Shown: in pieces, positions 36,431-45,152 of the stretch | Position numbering within the stretch: the stretch's first letter is position 1 | How the letters are laid out: the number at the start of each line of letters is the position of its first letter | NCBI RefSeq assembly: GCF_030605225.1 | Contig: NZ_JAUWAV010000023.1 | Coordinates: forward strand, 1-64,000 | DNA length: 64,000 nt | From: Geoalkalibacter sp. | GTDB taxonomy: Bacteria > Desulfobacterota > Desulfuromonadia > Desulfuromonadales > Geoalkalibacteraceae | Reading direction: 5' to 3' | Notes under the pieces: model-generated | The model's input: the letters and a program-made list of their open reading frames with translations, nothing else | What the model was told of the DNA's origin: nothing | The model's database searches: none | Position numbers and translations under genes: made by a program

Positions 36431-37585
36431 TCAACGAGGCGGGTGCGCCGCCAGGGCGCTCAGGGCACCGACCACGGTCCGCATCTCATCCAGGGTATTG
36501 AAATACCCCGGGCTCAGCCGCACCGTGCCGCGGGGAAAGGTGCCGATGGTGCGATGGGCATCGGGCGCGCAATGCAGACCGACGCGCGCCAGGATACCGT
36601 ATTCGCGATCGAGCAGAAATCCGATTTCCGCCGGATCGTACTCCCCCAGGGTCAGGGACAGCGCACCGCCGTGGTAGAGGGGATCAAGCGGCCCGTGGAG
36701 TTTCATCCCGGCAATGGCGGAGAGCCCCTCGATGAGTTCTCCAAGAAGCTCGGCTTCGTGAGCCCGTATGGCCGCCAGGCCTTCGCGCTGCAAAAAACGA
36801 ATGCCGGCGGTCAGTCCGGCCAAGCCGGGCGTGTTGAGCGTGCCGGCCTCCAGCCGCTCGGGCATGTGCTCGGGGGGCAGATCGGAACTGGAATTGGCGC
36901 CGGTTCCGCCATAAACCAAGGGACGCGGTTCCAGGCCCTCGCGCACATAGAGAAAACCCGTACCCTGGGGTCCCAGCAAGCCCTTGTGCCCGGGGGCCGC
37001 CAGCAGGTCGATGCCCATATCGTCGACGTCGAGAGAAAAAATTCCCGCGCTCTGCGCCGCGTCGACAAAAAAGACGATCCCCTCGCGACGGCACCAGGGG
37101 CCGATGTCCTCGATGGGCTGCAAGGTGCCGGTCACGTTGGAGCAATGACTCAACACGACCATGGTGGTTTTTTTTTCGGCGCAGGCGCGACGAATCTCGC
37201 CGGGATCGATCCGACCGCGCTCGTCGGCCCGCACCTTGACCACGCACAGGCCCTGATCCTGAAGCGCGCGCAGGGGCCGGGTCACGGCATTGTGCTCCAT
37301 GGTCGAGGTGACGACGCGGTCACCGGGCCGCAACAGCCCGAAGAGGCCGAAATTGATCGCCTCGGTGGCATTGCCGGTGAAGGCGATGCGCGATGCGTCA
37401 TGGGCACCGATGATTTCCGCCGCGGCTTCCCTGGCCTCGAACACGATGCGTCCGGCCTCCAGGGCAAGATGGTGCCCGCCGCGTCCGGGATTGGCGCCGG
37501 CGTCGCGCAGGGTGGCGGCGACGGCCTGATGCACCTCCGGCGGCTTGGGGAAGGAGGTGGCTGCATTGTCGAGGTAAATCGCCAT
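36431..37585 (-). CDS. Class V aminotransferase / cysteine desulfurase family protein
   Basis: 384 residues. A PLP enzyme of the cysteine desulfurase type: IYLDNAATSFPKPPEV, FTGNATEAINFGLFGL, VVLSHCSNVTGTLQPIEDIG, FFVDAAQSAGIFSLDV, the PLP lysine in APGHKGLLGPQG, and a catalytic-type Cys in ILARVGLHCAPDAHRTIG. I associate this branch with a family named for its co-occurrence with selenium metabolism. It could supply sulfur or selenium from Cys/Sec. The ATG at 37585 has GGGGA upstream; a TTG three codons earlier is less likely. It follows the SPASM gene by 19 nt. Confidence 0.82.
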   Translation of the reverse strand: MAIYLDNAATSFPKPPEVHQAVAATLRDAGANPGRGGHHLALEAGRIVFEAREAAAEIIGAHDASRIAFTGNATEAINFGLFGLLRPGDRVVTSTMEHNAVTRPLRALQDQGLCVVKVRADERGRIDPGEIRRACAEKKTTMVVLSHCSNVTGTLQPIEDIGPWCRREGIVFFVDAAQSAGIFSLDVDDMGIDLLAAPGHKGLLGPQGTGFLYVREGLEPRPLVYGGTGANSSSDLPPEHMPERLEAGTLNTPGLAGLTAGIRFLQREGLAAIRAHEAELLGELIEGLSAIAGMKLHGPLDPLYHGGALSLTLGEYDPAEIGFLLDREYGILARVGLHCAPDAHRTIGTFPRGTVRLSPGYFNTLDEMRTVVGALSALAAHPPR

Positions 37586-37604
37586 GCCGGACAATCCCCG
37601 TGAT

Positions 37605-38537
37605 CTAACGGCTGCCGCGGCACATGAGGTCGCGGCCTTCGCTCTTCATCTTAAAGGTTTCCGCCAGACCGCGGCAACCGCCGAGGCAGATCGGCAGATC
37701 GCGGCAATCACGGCAAGCGGCGGGCAGACGCGCGATGACCGATCTCACCCCGTGGCGCAGGGGCGACTGCCAGAGTTCCTCCAACTCCGTCGTGAGCAGC
37801 GAACCGAGCACCAGCGGCCAGGAGGAACAAGGATAGAGATTGCCCCGGGCATCGATGTGGCCCAGACTGTTGGCGGCCTGGCAGCCCCCGTATTCGCCGC
37901 GCCCTTGGGTGCCCGCGGCAAAGAAAATTTCCCAGATGAACAGATCATGGACCTCAAGATCGAGTCCGCGCCTTGCGCTCGCGCCATCCCCGCCCACCCA
38001 TCGACGCAGATCCTCGATGTCCTCGGGACCAGGCAGGCGCAAGTCCTCGGGCTTTTGCCATTCGTCGGCAATGCGGGCGTTGGGAAGTTTCAGACGGGCA
38101 ATGCCCAGACGCCGGCACAAATCGGCGAGGGCGGGAATGCGTTGCAGATTGCGCTGTGAAGGCCGCAACAGCAGTGATGGAGCATAGCCCAGAGCGCGCA
38201 GGGCCGCAACGGCTTTCTCAATGAGGCGATCCGGTTGGTCGGCAACCTCCGTGACATCGAGAAAAAGCTCCCGCAGGGACCAGCCGCCGGCAAGCCGGGA
38301 GAAATTCTCCTCCTCGGGAGAAACGACGAGGGAAACCTGGCAGCCGGCGGCGAGATGCGCGACCACCCGCGCGCAGGCGTCATGGGACAGGGGCCGACCA
38401 TCGAGCAGCACAAAGAACACACCGGCGGCGAGCAGGCGGTCGGCGATCAGCATCAATTCGGAAGCAGGCAGAAGGTGCTCGGGATGATAAATGTCCCAAG
38501 TCAGGCGCAGAGGAGCATCGAGAAGATCAAGACTCAT
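37605..38537 (-). CDS. GeoRSP-type SPASM protein lacking the radical SAM cysteines
   Basis: 310 residues. The C-terminal SPASM region keeps its cysteines (YGGCQAANS, GNLYPCSSWPLVLGSL, CRDCRDLPICLGGC, MCRGS), ligands for auxiliary iron-sulfur clusters. The N-terminal domain has a radical SAM-like layout (LRLTWDIYHPEHLL, VFFVLLDGRPLS), but the CxxxCxxC that binds the SAM cluster is absent. It is therefore probably a non-catalytic partner of the true radical SAM enzyme upstream. I know such proteins as the 'GeoRSP system SPASM domain protein'. Located directly after the precursor gene and hairpin. Confidence 0.8.
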   Translation of the reverse strand: MSLDLLDAPLRLTWDIYHPEHLLPASELMLIADRLLAAGVFFVLLDGRPLSHDACARVVAHLAAGCQVSLVVSPEEENFSRLAGGWSLRELFLDVTEVADQPDRLIEKAVAALRALGYAPSLLLRPSQRNLQRIPALADLCRRLGIARLKLPNARIADEWQKPEDLRLPGPEDIEDLRRWVGGDGASARRGLDLEVHDLFIWEIFFAAGTQGRGEYGGCQAANSLGHIDARGNLYPCSSWPLVLGSLLTTELEELWQSPLRHGVRSVIARLPAACRDCRDLPICLGGCRGLAETFKMKSEGRDLMCRGSR

Positions 38538-38582
38538 GAATTGCGGAAATCACCAGGGAAGGCGGCCATGGGCCGCGGGTCG

Positions 38583-38625
38583 AAAAAGGTGGGGGGGCAG
38601 TTTCCTGCCCCCCGGAGCCTTTTTC
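38583..38625 (-). terminator. Strong hairpin with T-run after the precursor peptide gene
   Basis: On the minus strand GGGGGGCAG and CTGCCCCCC form a perfect 9-bp stem around GAAA, followed by CACC and TTTTT, with an outer AAAAAGG/CCTTTTT pairing. It begins at the peptide stop codon and precedes the SPASM gene by about 45 nt. Most simply it is a partial terminator or processing stop giving more peptide mRNA than downstream enzyme mRNA. See findings for a selenocysteine alternative. Confidence 0.75.
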
Positions 38626-38680
38626 AGCAGGGATGGACGTTGGAAGACCCGACCACCCGCGGCTTCATGTACTTCTTCAT
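38624..38680 (-). CDS. Putative GeoRSP precursor peptide (18 aa)
   Basis: An 18-residue reading frame, MKKYMKPRVVGSSNVHPC, with AGGGGAG 6 nt before its ATG. It lies between the radical SAM enzyme and the SPASM protein, the usual place for a modified-peptide precursor. It is basic at the N terminus, small/polar in the middle, and ends in Cys. An in-frame ATG at 38734, also with a fair ribosome binding site (GGAG), would give a 36-residue form with a Lys/Arg-rich leader. Substrate role is inferred from position. Confidence 0.7.
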   Translation of the reverse strand: MKKYMKPRVVGSSNVHPC

Positions 38681-38780
38681 AATGTTCTCCCCTTTCCGGC
38701 TGATTGTTTTGCCTCTCGCGAGACCCTTTTCCATGCTTTCTCCGGCCCACCCGGGAAAGCCTCCCAACAAAATTCATTCC

Positions 38781-39785
38781 TTATTTCCAGCAGTGCGGAT
38801 CAGGCTGTTCCAGATCGCCGGTCACCGCCAGTGCCCGCGCCGTGCAACCGCCCAGGCAATCGGCGAAGGATTCGCATCCGCCGCACTTGCCCTTGGCTTC
38901 CTTGTTGCGCATGGCGTTGAGAACCGGCGAATGATACCAGATCTGATCAAAATCATCCCGCAGAATGTTGCCGACCACCAAGGGTATGAACCCGCAGGGG
39001 GTGATGTCGCCATTGGGGCGCAAATGTAGCGAGAGTTTACCACAGGAACTGCCCTTGACCAAAGAGTTTTCACGGTATTGGGGCAAGGAGGCGATCACCG
39101 GGTCGTCAAAGGAAATGGCGAGATCCTTGACCTGCTCCTTGACCTCGAGGGCTTCGACGTAAAAAGCACGCCACTCCGCAGGCGTCAAATCGAGTTCCTG
39201 GCGATTTTCAAAACCCTTGCCGCTGCATTTGAAGTTGTGCAGATAGATCTGCGAAACCCCATGGTCGCGGGCGAGTTCGAGCAAATCGCGGAAATTCTTG
39301 TGGTTGATCCGCGAAATCACCGAACTCATGGTCGTCGTCACCCCGGCATCGCGAAGGTGGTCGAGGGCCGCAACCGCCCTTGCGAAGGAGCCCTCCCGAC
39401 AACGAAAGTCATCATGCAAAGCGGCAAGATGGCTGTCGATGCTCACGCCCACGGACTTAAAGCCTGACGATTGCAATCTTCGCGCCGCCTCGCCATCGAG
39501 CAGCCAGCCATTGGTGTTCATCGAGACATTGAGTCCCTGACGCCCTGCGTAGCCGGCGATCTCGAACAGATCGGGGCGCAGCAGCGGCTCACCGCCGCCG
39601 AAATTGATGAAAGGCACCTTTTTCGCCGCAAGAACATCGACAATGCGACAGATGTCGGCGGTATCGAGTTCCTCGCCCTCCTCATAGCGGCTGTAGCAAT
39701 GAGCGCAGACGAAATTGCAGCGAAAGGACAGCGTCCAGTTGAAGGTCAGGGGCGCGGAAAATAGATCGGTAAAGGCCTCAGACAT
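38781..39785 (-). CDS. GeoRSP-type radical SAM/SPASM peptide-modifying enzyme
   Basis: 334 residues. The radical SAM cluster motif is CNFVCAHC (Cys23, Cys27, Cys30), followed by the GGGEPLLRPDL SAM-binding motif and SMNTNGWLLD. The SPASM domain holds Cys in SSCGKLSLHLRPNGDITPCGF and a CGGCESFADCLGGC cluster, then a late Cys (DPHCW). Such enzymes install thioether, C-C or similar links on ribosomal peptides. It overlaps the PqqD-like gene by 8 nt and precedes the 18-codon peptide gene, so it is the catalytic centre of the locus. Confidence 0.92.
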   Translation of the reverse strand: MSEAFTDLFSAPLTFNWTLSFRCNFVCAHCYSRYEEGEELDTADICRIVDVLAAKKVPFINFGGGEPLLRPDLFEIAGYAGRQGLNVSMNTNGWLLDGEAARRLQSSGFKSVGVSIDSHLAALHDDFRCREGSFARAVAALDHLRDAGVTTTMSSVISRINHKNFRDLLELARDHGVSQIYLHNFKCSGKGFENRQELDLTPAEWRAFYVEALEVKEQVKDLAISFDDPVIASLPQYRENSLVKGSSCGKLSLHLRPNGDITPCGFIPLVVGNILRDDFDQIWYHSPVLNAMRNKEAKGKCGGCESFADCLGGCTARALAVTGDLEQPDPHCWK

Positions 39786-40092
39786 AACTCAGCCACCCCC
39801 GCTGCTCCAAATCGGCGAGAAATGCCTCGACATCCTCGACCAGTTCGTCGCGCTCCACCTCGAATTCGGCGGCCAGCGCCTCGATCAGTTCCTCGACGCC
39901 GCGACTGCCGTCGCAGAGACTCCAAATGTGTCCACCGACCAGATTGAGCTGATGCATCATGCCGGAGATGATCAAAATCACCGTGCCCCGCTCGTCCACG
40001 GCTTCACCGCGCTGCTGCGCCTTGAGTATTTCTTCCTCGCGGCGCTTTTCATGGCGCCAGACAATCTGGGGATTACGCAGGGGACGTTTCAA
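39778..40092 (-). CDS. PqqD-like peptide chaperone of the GeoRSP locus
   Basis: About 104 residues. PqqD family winged-helix protein: ERGTVILIISGMMHQLNLVGGHIWSLCDG, then GVEELIEALAAEFEVERDELVEDVEAFLADLEQRGWLSYV, matching the family's pattern of a beta-hairpin followed by helices ending in L…G-x-L. PqqD proteins bind the leader of the precursor and deliver it to the radical SAM enzyme. The start is a TTG at 40092 with GAGAAGAGG 6 nt upstream; no ATG is available at a suitable place. The long basic N-terminal segment (KRREEEILKAQQRGEAV) is unusual. Confidence 0.82.
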   Translation of the reverse strand: MKRPLRNPQIVWRHEKRREEEILKAQQRGEAVDERGTVILIISGMMHQLNLVGGHIWSLCDGSRGVEELIEALAAEFEVERDELVEDVEAFLADLEQRGWLSYV

Positions 40093-40124: not shown

Positions 40125-41186
40125 TCAGGCGGATCGCTCGCGCATCAGCAGACCGGTCAGCAACACCAGCGCCAAGCCGACGAGAACCGCCACCTTGCCG
40201 TAAACGGGGACTCCGGCGGCGGTGGCCGCCAACCCCCAACCCTGGACGACGGCGGCGCCAATGAGCATGCCCAGGACCACCATCCCGGCGTCCGTATCTC
40301 CCTCGCCGGCCTTGATGAGCTGACGAAACGGACAACCGCCGACCAGCACCGATATCCAACCCACCAACCCCATGCCGAGAAAGCTCCAGGCATGTTCCAG
40401 GTGAGCGCCGGGCTGTCCGTAAAAACCCGGCTCGAAGCGCCCGATGAGCAGATTGGCGAGGACCGCCGCCCCGGTAAAGGCGATAAGCCCCCAGAGCAGC
40501 GGCGCGCGTCGTCCGAGCACCAGGGCATCGCGTACCCCGCCGGTAATGCAGAACCGGCTGCGCTGGGCGAGAAAACCGAGCAGCACCCCGGCGCCCAGGG
40601 ACAGCAAAAGGGGCGCGTGCTGCGCCGCGCTGCCGCGACTGGAAGTGAGAATGAAGCTCGGCTGCACCAGGGCAAACACCAGCAGCAGCGCAAAGAGAGC
40701 CGGCACCACAAAACCCGTCCCGCCGCGCTGCGGCGTACTCATGCCGAAATGCACGCCCGCGGCAAGACTGCGCAGCCCGAGCCACACACCCGCCACCAGG
40801 CCGCCCAGGGCGGCCAGGGCGGTGAGATCGCCGGCGGTCAACCGCAAAAACAGCTTGATGGGACAACCGATGAAAATGGCACACCCGACGATGAGAAAAA
40901 AACCCGCCGTGAAGCGGCCCAGCGGGGCATTGCCGCCGCGTGAGCGAAATTCGCGAAACAGCAGCGCGCTGCCCATGGCGCCAAGCACGAAGCCGATCAA
41001 CTCCGGCCGCAGGTACTGCATGCGTTCATTGGCGTGCAGGCCCAGAGCACCGGCGCTGTTCTCGAGAAAGCAGGATACGCAGATCCCGGAGTTTTCCGGA
41101 TTGCCCCAGACCGTCAGGAGCACCCCCAACAGGCCAAGACTCAGGCTGGCGGCCATGATCATCCAGAACTCACGCTGCTTCAGCAT
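40125..41186 (-). CDS. YedE-type (YeeE/YedE) selenium-associated membrane transporter
   Basis: 353 residues with about nine hydrophobic spans. Family signatures: GICVSCFLENSAGALGLH near the N terminus, FLIVGCAIFIGCPIKLFLRL, LAQRSRFCITGGVRDALVLG and VLVGGCPFRQLIKAGEGDTDAGM, with conserved Cys residues on the transport path as in YeeE/YedE thiosulfate or sulfur-compound channels. I associate this branch with selenium metabolism. It lies 32 nt upstream of the PqqD-like gene on the same strand. Confidence 0.85.
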   Translation of the reverse strand: MLKQREFWMIMAASLSLGLLGVLLTVWGNPENSGICVSCFLENSAGALGLHANERMQYLRPELIGFVLGAMGSALLFREFRSRGGNAPLGRFTAGFFLIVGCAIFIGCPIKLFLRLTAGDLTALAALGGLVAGVWLGLRSLAAGVHFGMSTPQRGGTGFVVPALFALLLVFALVQPSFILTSSRGSAAQHAPLLLSLGAGVLLGFLAQRSRFCITGGVRDALVLGRRAPLLWGLIAFTGAAVLANLLIGRFEPGFYGQPGAHLEHAWSFLGMGLVGWISVLVGGCPFRQLIKAGEGDTDAGMVVLGMLIGAAVVQGWGLAATAAGVPVYGKVAVLVGLALVLLTGLLMRERSA

Positions 41187-41198
41187 CGCCGGTCGCTC

Positions 41199-41744
41199 TC
41201 ATTCGCATCCGCCGGCGAGCCGGCTTTGCAGATAATAGACGTTGCGCAGGGCGGCGGTCACCGAAGGGTTGTCGGGGTTGGCCCGGGCGCGTTCGCTCAG
41301 CACCGTCAGTCCTTCCTCCACCGCCTTCTGGATGCGCGTCCGCTCGCTCAAGGGGCTGCGTTGGTCGACGTAATCGCCGTTGAGACGCAAACCTTGCACA
41401 AAACTTGCCACGGCCTCCTCCAACACTCCCTGCTCGTGGAGAATCAGCCCTTTGAGGACAAACCCATGCGCCTCGCCGGCATAGGTGCGATTGAGTTGCT
41501 CGAGCATCAGCAGAGCTTGCTGCGCCTGTCCCTGCCGGCGAAGGTCCTGAACGGGGCCATAAATCTGCTGCAGGAAAGCGGCTCGCGCCTGATAGGCCAT
41601 TTCACGTTCCATGGCACGCTCGATGCCGCTTGCCTGCCGGGCGCCCGAAGCGCCGGGCACGCCGGCAATGAGCAACCAGGCCAGGGCCGCGACGACTCCG
41701 ATCAACCCCAGCACATGCAACCGATCATGCCAGTCCCAGCGCAT
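41199..41744 (-). CDS. Membrane-anchored TPR-like protein
   Basis: 181 residues. A single N-terminal membrane span (LHVLGLIGVVAALAWLLIAGV) leads into a helical periplasmic domain with TPR-like pairs (AYQARAAFLQQIYGPVQDLRRQGQAQQALLMLEQLNRTYAGEAHGFVLKGLILHEQGVLEEAVASFVQGLRL region, about 45-120) and Cys near the end. AGGAG lies 11 nt before the ATG at 41744; a TTG at 41753 is too close to it. Follows the PhnD-like gene and precedes yedE. Likely part of the same operon; role unknown. Confidence 0.65.
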   Translation of the reverse strand: MRWDWHDRLHVLGLIGVVAALAWLLIAGVPGASGARQASGIERAMEREMAYQARAAFLQQIYGPVQDLRRQGQAQQALLMLEQLNRTYAGEAHGFVLKGLILHEQGVLEEAVASFVQGLRLNGDYVDQRSPLSERTRIQKAVEEGLTVLSERARANPDNPSVTAALRNVYYLQSRLAGGCE

Positions 41745-41749
41745 CGCCG

Positions 41750-42685
41750 TCAAAACTCCTGATAGGGGGGCATGTTGACCCGCCGCAGCAGGTCGCGATT
41801 GACATCGTAATCGCTGTCGAGCAATTGCTCGAAACCGTCGATGAGCGCCGCATTGAGCACCTTGATGCGCTCACCGTCCATCTCCACCGTATCCTCGGGA
41901 GTGAGCTTGAGCAGAGCACGACGGAAATCCGCCACCAGCTTGGCATCGACGTGCGGCGCCGCGCCGAAGGTGCAATAGGGCATGATCTCGCTTTGCGCAA
42001 GGATGCGGAAATCATCGGCTTCGATCTTGCCTTCGGCGATCATGATTTCAAGATCGAGCACCGGCGCGGCGGCCACGTCGAAGGCCCCGAACCAGGCGCC
42101 GTAGATCACCTTTTCGTGCTTGAAGGACCCATGGGGAATGGCGTAGTAGGCCAGATCCAACTCGGGATCGATGCCCGCCTGAAGCAGCAGGTCGTACTGA
42201 GCGGCATACCCCTGCAACGCCAGTTGCGGGCCGAAAATCAATCGCTTGCCGCGCACATCCTCAAGGGTCTGGATGTCGCTGTCGCGCCGCACGACCAGCG
42301 CACCGGCGGTACGCGATCCGTATTGACCGCGTTTTTCCGTGGCCAGCAGTTCAAGGTTTTGCTCTTTTTTGAGAATGATGTAGAGAATGGCGTTGGTGTG
42401 AGTGAAGTCGAATTCACCCTGCTCGTAGCGTTCGACGAAATCCTGGGTATCGACGGGAATAGCCTCGAAGCGCACCCCCAATTCCTTCTCGAGATAGCGG
42501 GTCAGGGGCAGAAAACGGTGCATGGTTTCGGCTTCGCTGTTGCAGTTCATATAGCCGATGCGATACACCGGCCCCGAAGGGGTCTTTTCGCAACCCGCCA
42601 GAAGAACGGCCAAGGCCATCGCCAGCACCGGAAGCAGAGCGCGCAGCCGAAAGCCGCGCCGAACCGTCAGAAAATCGTTCATCAT
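41750..42685 (-). CDS. PhnD-like periplasmic solute-binding lipoprotein
   Basis: 311 residues. Lipoprotein signal (ALLPVLAMALAVLLAGC) then a phosphate/phosphite/phosphonate-type binding fold: YRIGYMNCNSEAETMHRFLPLTRYLEKELGVRFEAIPVDTQ, FDFTHTNAILYIILKKEQ, LIFGPQLALQGYAAQYDLLLQAGIDP and YGAWFGAFDVAAAP. No permease or ATPase is adjacent here, so it may be a sensor or an orphan binding protein. Ligand unknown; the PhnD fold also binds other oxyanions, and the selenium-linked neighbourhood makes a selenium or sulfur oxyanion worth considering, but this is only inference. Confidence 0.8.
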   Translation of the reverse strand: MMNDFLTVRRGFRLRALLPVLAMALAVLLAGCEKTPSGPVYRIGYMNCNSEAETMHRFLPLTRYLEKELGVRFEAIPVDTQDFVERYEQGEFDFTHTNAILYIILKKEQNLELLATEKRGQYGSRTAGALVVRRDSDIQTLEDVRGKRLIFGPQLALQGYAAQYDLLLQAGIDPELDLAYYAIPHGSFKHEKVIYGAWFGAFDVAAAPVLDLEIMIAEGKIEADDFRILAQSEIMPYCTFGAAPHVDAKLVADFRRALLKLTPEDTVEMDGERIKVLNAALIDGFEQLLDSDYDVNRDLLRRVNMPPYQEF

Positions 42686-42709
42686 GGACCTTTTCCGAGA
42701 GAAGATTTT

Positions 42710-43807
42710 TCAGAAATCGGGAAGAACCAGGCGAGGCGCCTGCTCCAAGGGATCGACGGCCTCGACCCATCCCGTTTCCGGGCGCAGACGACCATCGCGC
42801 AGCACGGCGGCCAGGACGTTCGGGTCGGCGCTGCCCCACCAGTTGCCCGGAGCCGGAGCGACCGTGGTGCCCTCGTTGCTGACGGCATAGAGTCCGTTGC
42901 CCTCGATGTGATTGCCGGTGATCCGCCCCCGGGCATTGAGCCAGCGCACTCCCGCGCGCCCGTTGTCGACAATGCGGTTGCCGCTGATTTCGGCGTCGGA
43001 TTCTTCAAGAAAGATGCCATGTTCACTGTTGCCCGTCACCAAATTGCCGACGAGGGTGCCGCGGGAACCTTGCAGATAAAGACCGCGGCGGTTGGCGGTG
43101 ATCAGATTGCCTGTCGCGACCACGGTGGAATCGCGCAAATTGACGCCGTTGATGAGATTGCCCTCGATTCGACAGCCCTGCATCTCCAACTCGCTGTACA
43201 CGCAGCGCACGCCCCAGTAGCTGCCCTTGACCACCGAATCCACCAGTCGCACCTGGGAATTGCGAAACTGGAGACCGTTGAGGTTGTCTTCGAGGCGACA
43301 GCGCTCGATGCCGACCTCCGATTCCTGAAACTGAAAACCGCGCATGTTGCGCCGAAAGAGGGAATCGCTGACTCGCGCCCGGGAGAAATGGGCGTGAAAC
43401 CCACGATAGGCATACTCGATGATGCAATGGGCCAGCAGATTTTCCTCGTCTTCGGCCAGCATCATGTTGATCGCGCCCCAACTGCCAGGCACCGGGTCAC
43501 TTGCGGTGCTGGTGAAACGAATCGGCGCCTCCGGCGTGCCGAGCGCCTTGAGGCGCCCCTGAATGAAGATCTCGTGCTCGCCGACGCCGTCGCCGTTGCT
43601 GTCCATGGGAGTGAAGCGCACCGTGGTCCCGGGACGGATTTCCAGCGTCACCCCCGGCGCCACCGTCAGGATTCCGTCAATCAGAACCTCGCCTTCCCAC
43701 ACCGTGTCCTGCCAAAGAGTATCCTCGCCGCGATAAATCTGCTGGGCGAAGGCCGACGCCGGCCAAAGCGCCAAAAGACCTGCCACGACAAGCCAGGCGA
43801 ACCTCAC
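42710..43807 (-). CDS. Periplasmic right-handed beta-helix protein (NosD/CASH-like), copy 1
   Basis: 365 residues. Signal peptide (FAWLVVAGLLALWPASAFA), then an N-terminal cap (ILTVAPGVTLEIRPGTTVRF) and many parallel beta-helix coils with N-[RL]-I and G-[NV]-x-I repeats (GVNLRDSTVVATGNLITANRRGLYLQGSRGTLVGNLVTGNSEHGIFLEESDAEISGNRIVDNG region). It ends with NWWGSADPN, a common closing motif in such proteins. The fold occurs in NosD and carbohydrate-active proteins. Overlaps the second beta-helix gene by 4 nt. Confidence 0.85.
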   Translation of the reverse strand: MRFAWLVVAGLLALWPASAFAQQIYRGEDTLWQDTVWEGEVLIDGILTVAPGVTLEIRPGTTVRFTPMDSNGDGVGEHEIFIQGRLKALGTPEAPIRFTSTASDPVPGSWGAINMMLAEDEENLLAHCIIEYAYRGFHAHFSRARVSDSLFRRNMRGFQFQESEVGIERCRLEDNLNGLQFRNSQVRLVDSVVKGSYWGVRCVYSELEMQGCRIEGNLINGVNLRDSTVVATGNLITANRRGLYLQGSRGTLVGNLVTGNSEHGIFLEESDAEISGNRIVDNGRAGVRWLNARGRITGNHIEGNGLYAVSNEGTTVAPAPGNWWGSADPNVLAAVLRDGRLRPETGWVEAVDPLEQAPRLVLPDF

Positions 43808-44628
43808 GGCCGGCCTCCGGGCAAGCCAAGCAGCCGCACGTCCTGCTGGTTGCCTCGCACCTGATCGGTCGGCGCGGAGTCAACCGGCCCATGAAGCGCG
43901 ATACCGATGCCGTTGCCGCTGATCCGATTGCCCTGCAGGCGCGGCCGGCTGGAGCGGTCGATGAACAGGCCTTCCTCATTGTGGTTCAGGATGCGATTGT
44001 CCAGCATCAAGGGGTGGGATTCGATCCAGCAAAACACGCCCGCCTCGCCGCCTTCAATCAAATTGCCGATCAAAGACGGTGCGCTTCGTTGCTGGGCGAT
44101 GATGCCGTAGCGGCAGGCAAGAATCTCGCTGTCGCGGATCTCGGGGGAGCTGTTGATGCAGAGAATGCCCTGTTCGGCATGCTCGATGCGCGTATGGCGG
44201 ATAAGGCTGTCCGTCGCACCGTCGAGCAGCAGTCCGGCCCAGGCGTAGGCGCCTTCTTCCTTGGGGCGAGAGAGATTGAAAAGCACCGGATGGGCGGCGG
44301 TGCCTTCGCTGCGCAATGTGCCGCGCACCAGCAGTTCCGTCGCCGAGGACAACCATTCCGGATCGATCTTGGTGCTATCGGAAGGCACCACGTAGACTAC
44401 AGTCCCGGGGCGCAATGTCAGAGTGATCCCGGCGGGCACCAACAGATCATCGGCCAGCACCACGGCGCCTTCCAGCACCAGATCGGCCGTCAGGACGCCC
44501 GAGACGCGCGGCAGCTTGTCCAGATCCGGCGCGGCGGACGCAACCACCGTCAGGCCCAGCGGCGCCTGGGCGCACCCCCCGAACCAAAGGGTCAGGGCCG
44601 ACAAGAGCAGGTAGAGAAATTTTCGCAT
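43804..44628 (-). CDS. Right-handed beta-helix lipoprotein, copy 2
   Basis: About 274 residues. Signal peptide with lipobox (MRKFLYLLLSALTLWFGGC), then VPAGITLTLRPGTVVYV, the same N-terminal cap as the next gene, and coils such as SLIRHTRIEHAEQGILCINSSPEIRDSEILACRYGI and LFIDRSSRPRLQGNRISGNGIGIALHG. It is a shorter relative of the following gene, suggesting tandem duplication. An ATG at 44643 overlaps the upstream stop; the ATG at 44628 gives the normal signal peptide. ATGA overlap with the downstream gene. Confidence 0.8.
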   Translation of the reverse strand: MRKFLYLLLSALTLWFGGCAQAPLGLTVVASAAPDLDKLPRVSGVLTADLVLEGAVVLADDLLVPAGITLTLRPGTVVYVVPSDSTKIDPEWLSSATELLVRGTLRSEGTAAHPVLFNLSRPKEEGAYAWAGLLLDGATDSLIRHTRIEHAEQGILCINSSPEIRDSEILACRYGIIAQQRSAPSLIGNLIEGGEAGVFCWIESHPLMLDNRILNHNEEGLFIDRSSRPRLQGNRISGNGIGIALHGPVDSAPTDQVRGNQQDVRLLGLPGGRP

Positions 44629-44633
44629 GGAGA

Positions 44634-45152
44634 TCAAATCCATCGCTGGCGCATGAGAAAAGCCCGAGCCGCGGCGGCCGGCGGCGCCCCCGCTGCGACC
44701 TCGGCCGCCAAAGCCTGAAAGAGTTCCGGCGTCAGCAGTCGATCAAGCCGCTGCAAGGCGGGCGCCACGGTGGTGAATTGTAGTTCCTCCAGGGGACGAC
44801 GGCCGGAGAGCAGGTAGGGTACACCGGCAGCCGTCACCAGGGGCGTGAACTCCTCCGCAAGATCGGGCGCAAAGGCCATGTCGACGCGCTTTTCACGTAG
44901 GAAATGCAGTGGGTCGGCGCCCTCCAGGGGCACGGCCACCGTCTCCACGCCGGTTTTTTCCTTGATGTAAAGGGCGACGACCGCATAAAAGGCTCGCTGC
45001 TCGGCCGCATCGCCCAGCCCGATATAAAGCTTGGGTCCAAAGCAGGCCCGCGCGGTCGACACCTGAAGCGCGAAACCCAGAACCAGCAGGGCCAGACAGA
45101 CGGCCGAACGCGGGACAAAACGGCGGCGATGAATGAATCGGCGCGAAATCAT
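44634..45152 (-). CDS. Short periplasmic solute-binding-like protein
   Basis: 172 residues. Signal peptide with a very basic n-region (RRFIHRRRFVPR) and hydrophobic core AVCLALLVLGFALQVSTARA. The mature protein begins CFGPKLYIGLGDAAEQRAFYAVVALYIKEKTGVETVAVPL and continues FLREKRVDMAFAPDLAEEF, resembling half of a type II periplasmic binding protein of the glycine-betaine or PhnD kind. At about 135 mature residues it is half the normal length. First gene of the minus-strand cluster, directly behind a strong promoter. Confidence 0.65.
   Translation of the reverse strand: MISRRFIHRRRFVPRSAVCLALLVLGFALQVSTARACFGPKLYIGLGDAAEQRAFYAVVALYIKEKTGVETVAVPLEGADPLHFLREKRVDMAFAPDLAEEFTPLVTAAGVPYLLSGRRPLEELQFTTVAPALQRLDRLLTPELFQALAAEVAAGAPPAAAARAFLMRQRWI

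Follow-up and report, generated by a model that had tools for sequence, protein, structure and literature searches.

A conserved 18-residue peptide as probable substrate of the GeoRSP radical SAM system, with dispersed copies beside multiheme cytochrome genes

On what does the GeoRSP radical SAM system act, and what would its product be for? The enzymes are already named in NCBIfam (TIGR04302, TIGR04303, TIGR04304), and we found no substrate or function for them in the open literature, with subscription papers mostly outside our scope, so that an earlier description may exist; the one open paper in which the name GeoRSP turns up deals with elephants, and the portions of PMC4289311, PMC12977616, PMC7470986 and PMC9312934 that we consulted contain nothing on a GeoRSP substrate. 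The window analysed here, a stretch of 64,000 nucleotides from Geoalkalibacter sp., carries all three enzyme genes on the minus strand. The radical SAM/SPASM enzyme (38781..39785, 334 aa) scores 467 bits on TIGR04303, above the cut-off of 400, and contains the CxxxCxxC motif, which is present in 49/49 GeoRSP loci; its nearest solved structure by sequence is PqqE (6c8v, 5.8e-20). The second gene encodes a PqqD-like RRE protein, a peptide chaperone (39778..40092; PF05402, 1.8e-19), which at 99.0 bits on TIGR04302 lies below the cut-off of 100, and the third a SPASM protein (37605..38537), for which TIGR04304 is the best model, also below cut-off (100 of 300 bits). This partner lacks CxxxCxxC, as do all 38 partner sequences compared, yet seven SPASM cysteines are invariant over these 38 proteins from both halves of the class, for which reason we read it as a pseudo-radical-SAM protein; a model built from the 38 sequences (pLDDT 90) likewise predicts a pseudo-radical SAM barrel with a SPASM domain, resembling SuiB, PqqE and anSME.

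Between the radical SAM gene upstream and the partner gene downstream lies a minus-strand frame of 18 codons, MKKYMKPRVVGSSNVHPC, with stop codon TGA (38624..38680). It is preceded on the same strand by the ribosome-binding site AAAGGGGAG (38687..38695) and followed by a terminator-like hairpin (38581..38626, minus strand), which begins within the peptide stop codon, has a T-run at its end and reaches a folding energy of -30.9 kcal/mol (z = -5.3; matched by 0/200 shuffles). The first-pass annotation had pointed to just this arrangement of frame, strong ribosome-binding site and hairpin, and all of its elements are indeed present. It had also proposed that a genuine gene should keep its K-Y-x-K-P start and its C-terminal end in related genomes with variation at third codon positions, and this expectation was borne out: the same 18-aa frame occupies the same gap in 22 of 28 GeoRSP loci of relatives, and mean identity at codon positions 1, 2 and 3 over 127 copies of 18 aa amounts to 0.84, 0.86 and 0.49, respectively. 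In the remaining six loci the partner gene begins no farther than about 30 nt from the radical SAM stop codon; all six genomes carry a peptide copy elsewhere, and a copy is found somewhere in 28/28. For the same 127 copies, identity in the 30-nt flanks is 0.35 before the frame and 0.28 after the stop, pS (0.746, saturated) compares with a pN of 0.146, and an SD-like motif precedes 124/127 copies versus a fraction of 0.23 in shuffles. In 107/180 copies a terminator-like site lies no more than 120 nt downstream, compared to 5/180 shuffled sequences, and over 183 copies the stop codon is TGA in 102, TAA in 70 and TAG in 11. The 18-aa frame is a real gene under strong protein-level selection and not a chance frame, and it is easily missed. 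A longer, 36-residue precursor starting at an in-frame ATG (38734), suggested earlier, did not hold up, as an in-frame ATG at least 10 codons upstream occurs in only 8/44 GeoRSP-linked copies and the extensions are mutually unlike. A known RNA element was likewise ruled out, since the sole Rfam match over 38300-39000 reaches 19.5 bits versus a gathering score of 39 and lies inside the radical SAM gene.

The peptide belongs to a family with forms of 17-20 aa whose sequences end in VHPC and which has members in Desulfuromonadales, Geobacter relatives and Nitrospirota; among its carriers are the laboratory isolates Geothermobacter hydrogeniphilus HR-1 and Geobacter sp. AOG1. A typical Desulfuromonadales form reads M-K-K-Y-x-K-P-[RK]-V-V-G-S-S-N-V-H-P-C, the form of Geobacter relatives is MKKRTYIKPRVVGSANVHPC, with N replaced by T, A, V, D or I in some, and that of Nitrospirota is MKKLTYVKPKVVGTANVHPC. 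The 183 copies were collected by patterns or a profile requiring most of Y, P and HPC, so that some of the invariance at these positions stems from the search itself; the variation at third codon positions, the flanks and the stop codons are free of this bias. One of the search patterns accepted NVHPC endings only, and contig titles, from which group names such as Desulfuromonadales were inferred, were given for 80 of its 115 matched stretches. No model in NCBIfam 20.0 (six forms of 20-36 aa scanned) or Pfam (three forms) matched the peptide, the bare 18-aa form of the window having entered these scans only inside its longer frame, and a single PDB match with an E-value of 0.75 was taken as chance. 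A copy on a contig of a Phycisphaerae metagenome-assembled genome (L200) is suspected to be contamination, because that genome has no GeoRSP match and the copy lies in an HD-protein neighbourhood like that of Desulfuromonadales.

Does the peptide travel with the enzymes? Among 277 genomes of the class, GeoRSP and the peptide occur together in 82, GeoRSP alone in two (G182, G226), the peptide alone in 13 and neither in 180, the radical SAM enzyme thus being found in 84/277 (E <= 1e-80, GeoRSP-negative meaning that it was not found at this threshold) and the peptide profile in 95/277 (E <= 1e-5). The co-occurrence has a Fisher p of 1.7e-53, a value calculated without phylogenetic correction and inflated by shared ancestry; presence is patchy inside several genera. 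Nine of the 13 peptide-only genomes are less than 90% complete, and at least three of the 13 (G004, G106, G107) have pieces of the radical SAM gene beside the peptide. A reversed control pattern gave seven matches across all 277 genomes. Furthermore, seven of eight Nitrospirota genomes, all picked for having the peptide, contain the GeoRSP radical SAM gene, six of them scoring above the cut-off and the seventh split into two pieces, and the eighth (G282) has a distant relative of it only. The proposal of the first-pass annotation that the peptide is the GeoRSP substrate is thus supported by a near-perfect co-occurrence reaching into Nitrospirota, and we consider it very probable that the enzymes would act on this peptide.

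Further genes flank those of the three enzymes. Downstream of the partner gene lies a cysteine desulfurase family gene (36431..37594, minus strand; TIGR01977, 442 bits, above cut-off), with a tblastn match in 8/8 Desulfuromonadales GeoRSP loci and in 0/20 others. Upstream, also on the minus strand, follow genes for a YedE-type sulphur/selenium transporter (40125..41186; TIGR04112, 399 bits, above cut-off), a TPR-like protein (41199..41753; PF13414, weak and below the Pfam cut-off), a phosphonate-type, PhnD-like periplasmic substrate-binding protein (41750..42685; PF12974) and two NosD-like right-handed beta-helix proteins (42710..43807 and 43804..44643). All five recur in 8/8 Desulfuromonadales GeoRSP loci, and among the 20 other loci YedE recurs in 12, the TPR and binding proteins in 13 each, and the two NosD-like proteins in 17 and 14, respectively; CarboxypepD_reg, ResB-like and permease genes are frequent additions in these other loci. 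Since GeoRSP is repeatedly surrounded by the NosD-like, binding-protein, TPR and YedE genes, in varying order (window 40125-45152, L164-L171, L287-L306), the functional locus may be larger than the three enzymes. A link to selenium, considered from YedE, is not supported beyond this proximity.

Where the product might be used is suggested by the copies that lie elsewhere. Many genomes contain two to six copies of the peptide gene, and that of the window a single one. Classed by simple motif rules, the genes directly upstream of the 183 copies encode multiheme cytochromes in 63 cases, the GeoRSP radical SAM enzyme in 44, FG-GAP/VCBS proteins in 16 and HD proteins in seven, with 40 other or none and 13 at a contig or locus end. 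After exclusion of the 44 GeoRSP-linked and 13 end copies, an ORF with at least three CxxCH motifs stands directly upstream of 58 of 126 copies, versus 3/306 background ORFs, sampled from five GeoRSP-positive genomes as 20 stretches at even spacing, and 7/90 same-strand ORFs downstream of copies. Of two peptide-adjacent cytochromes that were scanned, one has an MtrC/MtrF-like domain and the other CxxxxCH/CxxCH domains. At L118, such a cytochrome belongs to a possible porin-cytochrome operon, the putative porin being without Pfam match. Tandem peptide genes, 103 nt apart, stand behind one CxxCH-rich cytochrome at about 5396-5600 of L096 (G049). Divergent copies also occur behind giant cytochromes: one in L397 (G040) ends in NVHLC instead of NVHPC and is possibly decaying, and another in the window's own genus (L112 and L390, G003) has a TTG start and the sequence KIHIKPKGSGSANVHPC, as if cytochrome-linked copies were being lost in this genus.

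Cytochromes are not the only neighbours. The FG-GAP/VCBS proteins, about 480-530 aa long (L126, L135, L140, L121 and others), stand upstream of 16 of the 126 copies, one of them giving a weak UnbV/ASPIC match when scanned, and an HD-domain protein of about 190 aa directly precedes the peptide in L094, L127, L134, L138, L139, L142 and L200. Of ten scanned neighbours from the remaining class, seven carry CarboxypepD_reg, six of them over the Pfam cut-off. Genes that look NikR-like (L355, L358) or of NifU/IscU type (L233) also precede copies. Because many copies lie beside exported proteins other than cytochromes, 40/183 are without a class and a few lie beside apparently cytosolic proteins (HD, NikR-like, NifU-like), the role of the peptide may be wider than cytochromes.

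The link to cytochromes can be followed further by a profile, A2, made from the C-terminal 250 residues of seven peptide-adjacent giant cytochromes (E <= 1e-15). A2 was matched in 57 of 75 GeoRSP-positive genomes of the class (sampled from 84) versus 0/67 GeoRSP-negative genomes, the latter chosen mostly for completeness, a contrast to be read with the caveat that A2 derives from peptide-adjacent proteins. The matches comprise 3/3 GeoRSP-positive genomes of the window's own genus and 54/72 further ones of the class, leaving 18/75 without a match, and none was found in the eight Nitrospirota genomes; outside Desulfuromonadales nearly all matches are weak, at about 1e-15 to 1e-18, G140 excepted. 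Cytochromes with CxxxxCH/CxxCH exist in 20/50 GeoRSP-negative genomes, several of which have dozens of such matches, the longest frames reaching about 2,700 aa. The A2 contrast is therefore not simply an absence of such cytochromes. Nevertheless, since the corresponding number in GeoRSP-positive genomes is 29/30, lifestyle may lie behind part of it. Among 39 A2 loci, a peptide frame occurs within 400 nt in 16 (one ending in NVHLC) and is absent in 23. The genome of the window has three A2 giant cytochrome genes, with frames of 2121-2799 aa, none of them with a peptide frame within 400 nt. Since its one peptide gene lies in the GeoRSP operon, any action on these giants would have to be in trans.

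From these observations we infer a modification by GeoRSP, the residue involved and a role of the product as follows. The peptide gene would encode a precursor, made by ribosomes and then modified by GeoRSP, in which no classical leader is seen. Its conserved Y-x-x-P-x-V-V stretch is probably bound by the PqqD-like protein, while the modification, most likely of the C-terminal V-H-P-C, would be the task of the radical SAM/SPASM enzyme, in which the pseudo-radical-SAM partner probably takes part; the chemistry of the enzyme's relatives PqqE, MftC and AhbD suggests formation of a C-C bond or oxidative decarboxylation, and a modified terminal cysteine is a guess to which we give a low probability. 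Rather than being an antibiotic, the modified peptide may then serve giant extracellular multiheme cytochromes, along with certain other exported proteins, as a cofactor, ligand or assembly factor that acts in trans, and additional copies behind genes of this sort would adjust the supply of peptide to the need. Taken as a whole, a GeoRSP-modified peptide serving exported cytochromes in trans is the best explanation and, in our judgement, a probable one, and for the service to cytochromes or other exported proteins taken by itself we lean towards a yes. A bolder version, which we put forward as a tentative possibility, is that the product of GeoRSP is a cofactor or structural ligand derived from the peptide and dedicated to giant extracellular multiheme cytochromes, common to Desulfuromonadia and some Nitrospirota, and that, in Desulfuromonadia at least, it would dock on or be attached to the C-terminal domain of the cytochromes (CSKCHNPHASRLPKLMITNCLD ... 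NCHR ... GWNxVTPW).

Could the modified peptide instead handle heme or thiols transiently during maturation of c-type cytochromes, without staying in the product? ResB-like genes, found next to several peptide copies as well as in the GeoRSP loci of groups other than Desulfuromonadales, would fit such a function, as would the CxxxxCH/CxxCH domains of the one peptide-adjacent cytochrome; however, heme attachment to c-type cytochromes is periplasmic, whereas the peptide has no export signal, and the FG-GAP and CarboxypepD_reg proteins found beside other copies are not known to carry heme, which makes this reading improbable to us. Equally doubtful is that the product is a secreted small molecule (a metallophore, signal or antimicrobial), with the linkage to cytochromes reflecting mere co-regulation. 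The PhnD-like binding protein and NosD-like proteins recurring in GeoRSP loci, an ArsP-type permease in some of them and a V-H-P-C end that might bind metal could be accommodated, but a dedicated peptide exporter or peptidase was absent from the flanking genes scanned, presence of the system tracks a specific cytochrome domain (A2), and the very low sequence diversity of the family is unlike antimicrobial RiPPs.

Two further readings dispense with a modified product altogether. As a short frame directly ahead of a terminator-like hairpin, the peptide could be the leader of a transcription attenuator, in which stalled ribosomes would govern the terminator and, through it, the gene that follows, and a same-strand ORF of at least 100 aa does start within 400 nt downstream of 90/126 copies, chance ORFs included. 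Against this, conservation at the protein level spans the whole peptide instead of a run of one codon, the downstream genes are of many families, several loci (for instance L102, L110, L113 and L122) have the next listed ORF on the other strand, and the peptide is missing upstream of the partner gene in the six GeoRSP loci with a closed gap; we have thus rejected the attenuator as highly improbable. A selenopeptide, in which TGA is read as selenocysteine and the hairpin serves as SECIS element, would suit the C-TGA and hairpin of the window as well as the nearby YedE and cysteine desulfurase genes, yet the use of three different stop codons over the 183 copies excludes a conserved selenocysteine, conservation does not extend beyond the stop and the hairpin, with a T-run at its end, resembles a terminator, which reduces this idea to a negligible chance.

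To return to the GeoRSP-modified peptide, its closest analogues are PQQ and mycofactocin, cofactors made from tiny peptides. As with PqqA/D/E and MftA/B/C, a very short conserved precursor occurs with an RRE protein and a PqqE-like radical SAM/SPASM enzyme, without the diversity of antibiotic peptides. The system nevertheless belongs to neither: the radical SAM enzyme reaches 122 of 381 bits on the PqqE model and 188 of 265 on that of MftC, the scanned peptide forms match no NCBIfam model, and the peptide sequence is unlike those of PqqA and MftA. Unlike both, moreover, the window locus has a second, pseudo-radical-SAM partner, and the family has many dispersed precursor copies. The combination of a SPASM radical SAM enzyme and a small precursor is shared with geopeptide and other radical SAM/SPASM RiPP systems, and a short conserved precursor gene together with its putative modifying enzyme, as defines radical SAM-modified RiPPs, is found here. 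In contrast to these systems, there is no recognisable split into leader and core, and precursors lie beside cytochromes; the geopeptide maturase model TIGR04280 is outside the best 25 families listed for the radical SAM enzyme, and the partner reaches 15.8 of 400 bits.

A layout in which copies are dispersed behind the genes that they possibly serve escapes precursor searches confined to the gene clusters of the enzymes. For GeoRSP, the family provides a concrete candidate substrate, a synthetically accessible peptide of 18-20 residues, together with a testable link to extracellular electron transfer, which is the basis of metal reduction and of microbial electrodes. If the proposed role is true, extracellular electron transfer would include a component, a modified peptide, that has so far gone unrecognised.
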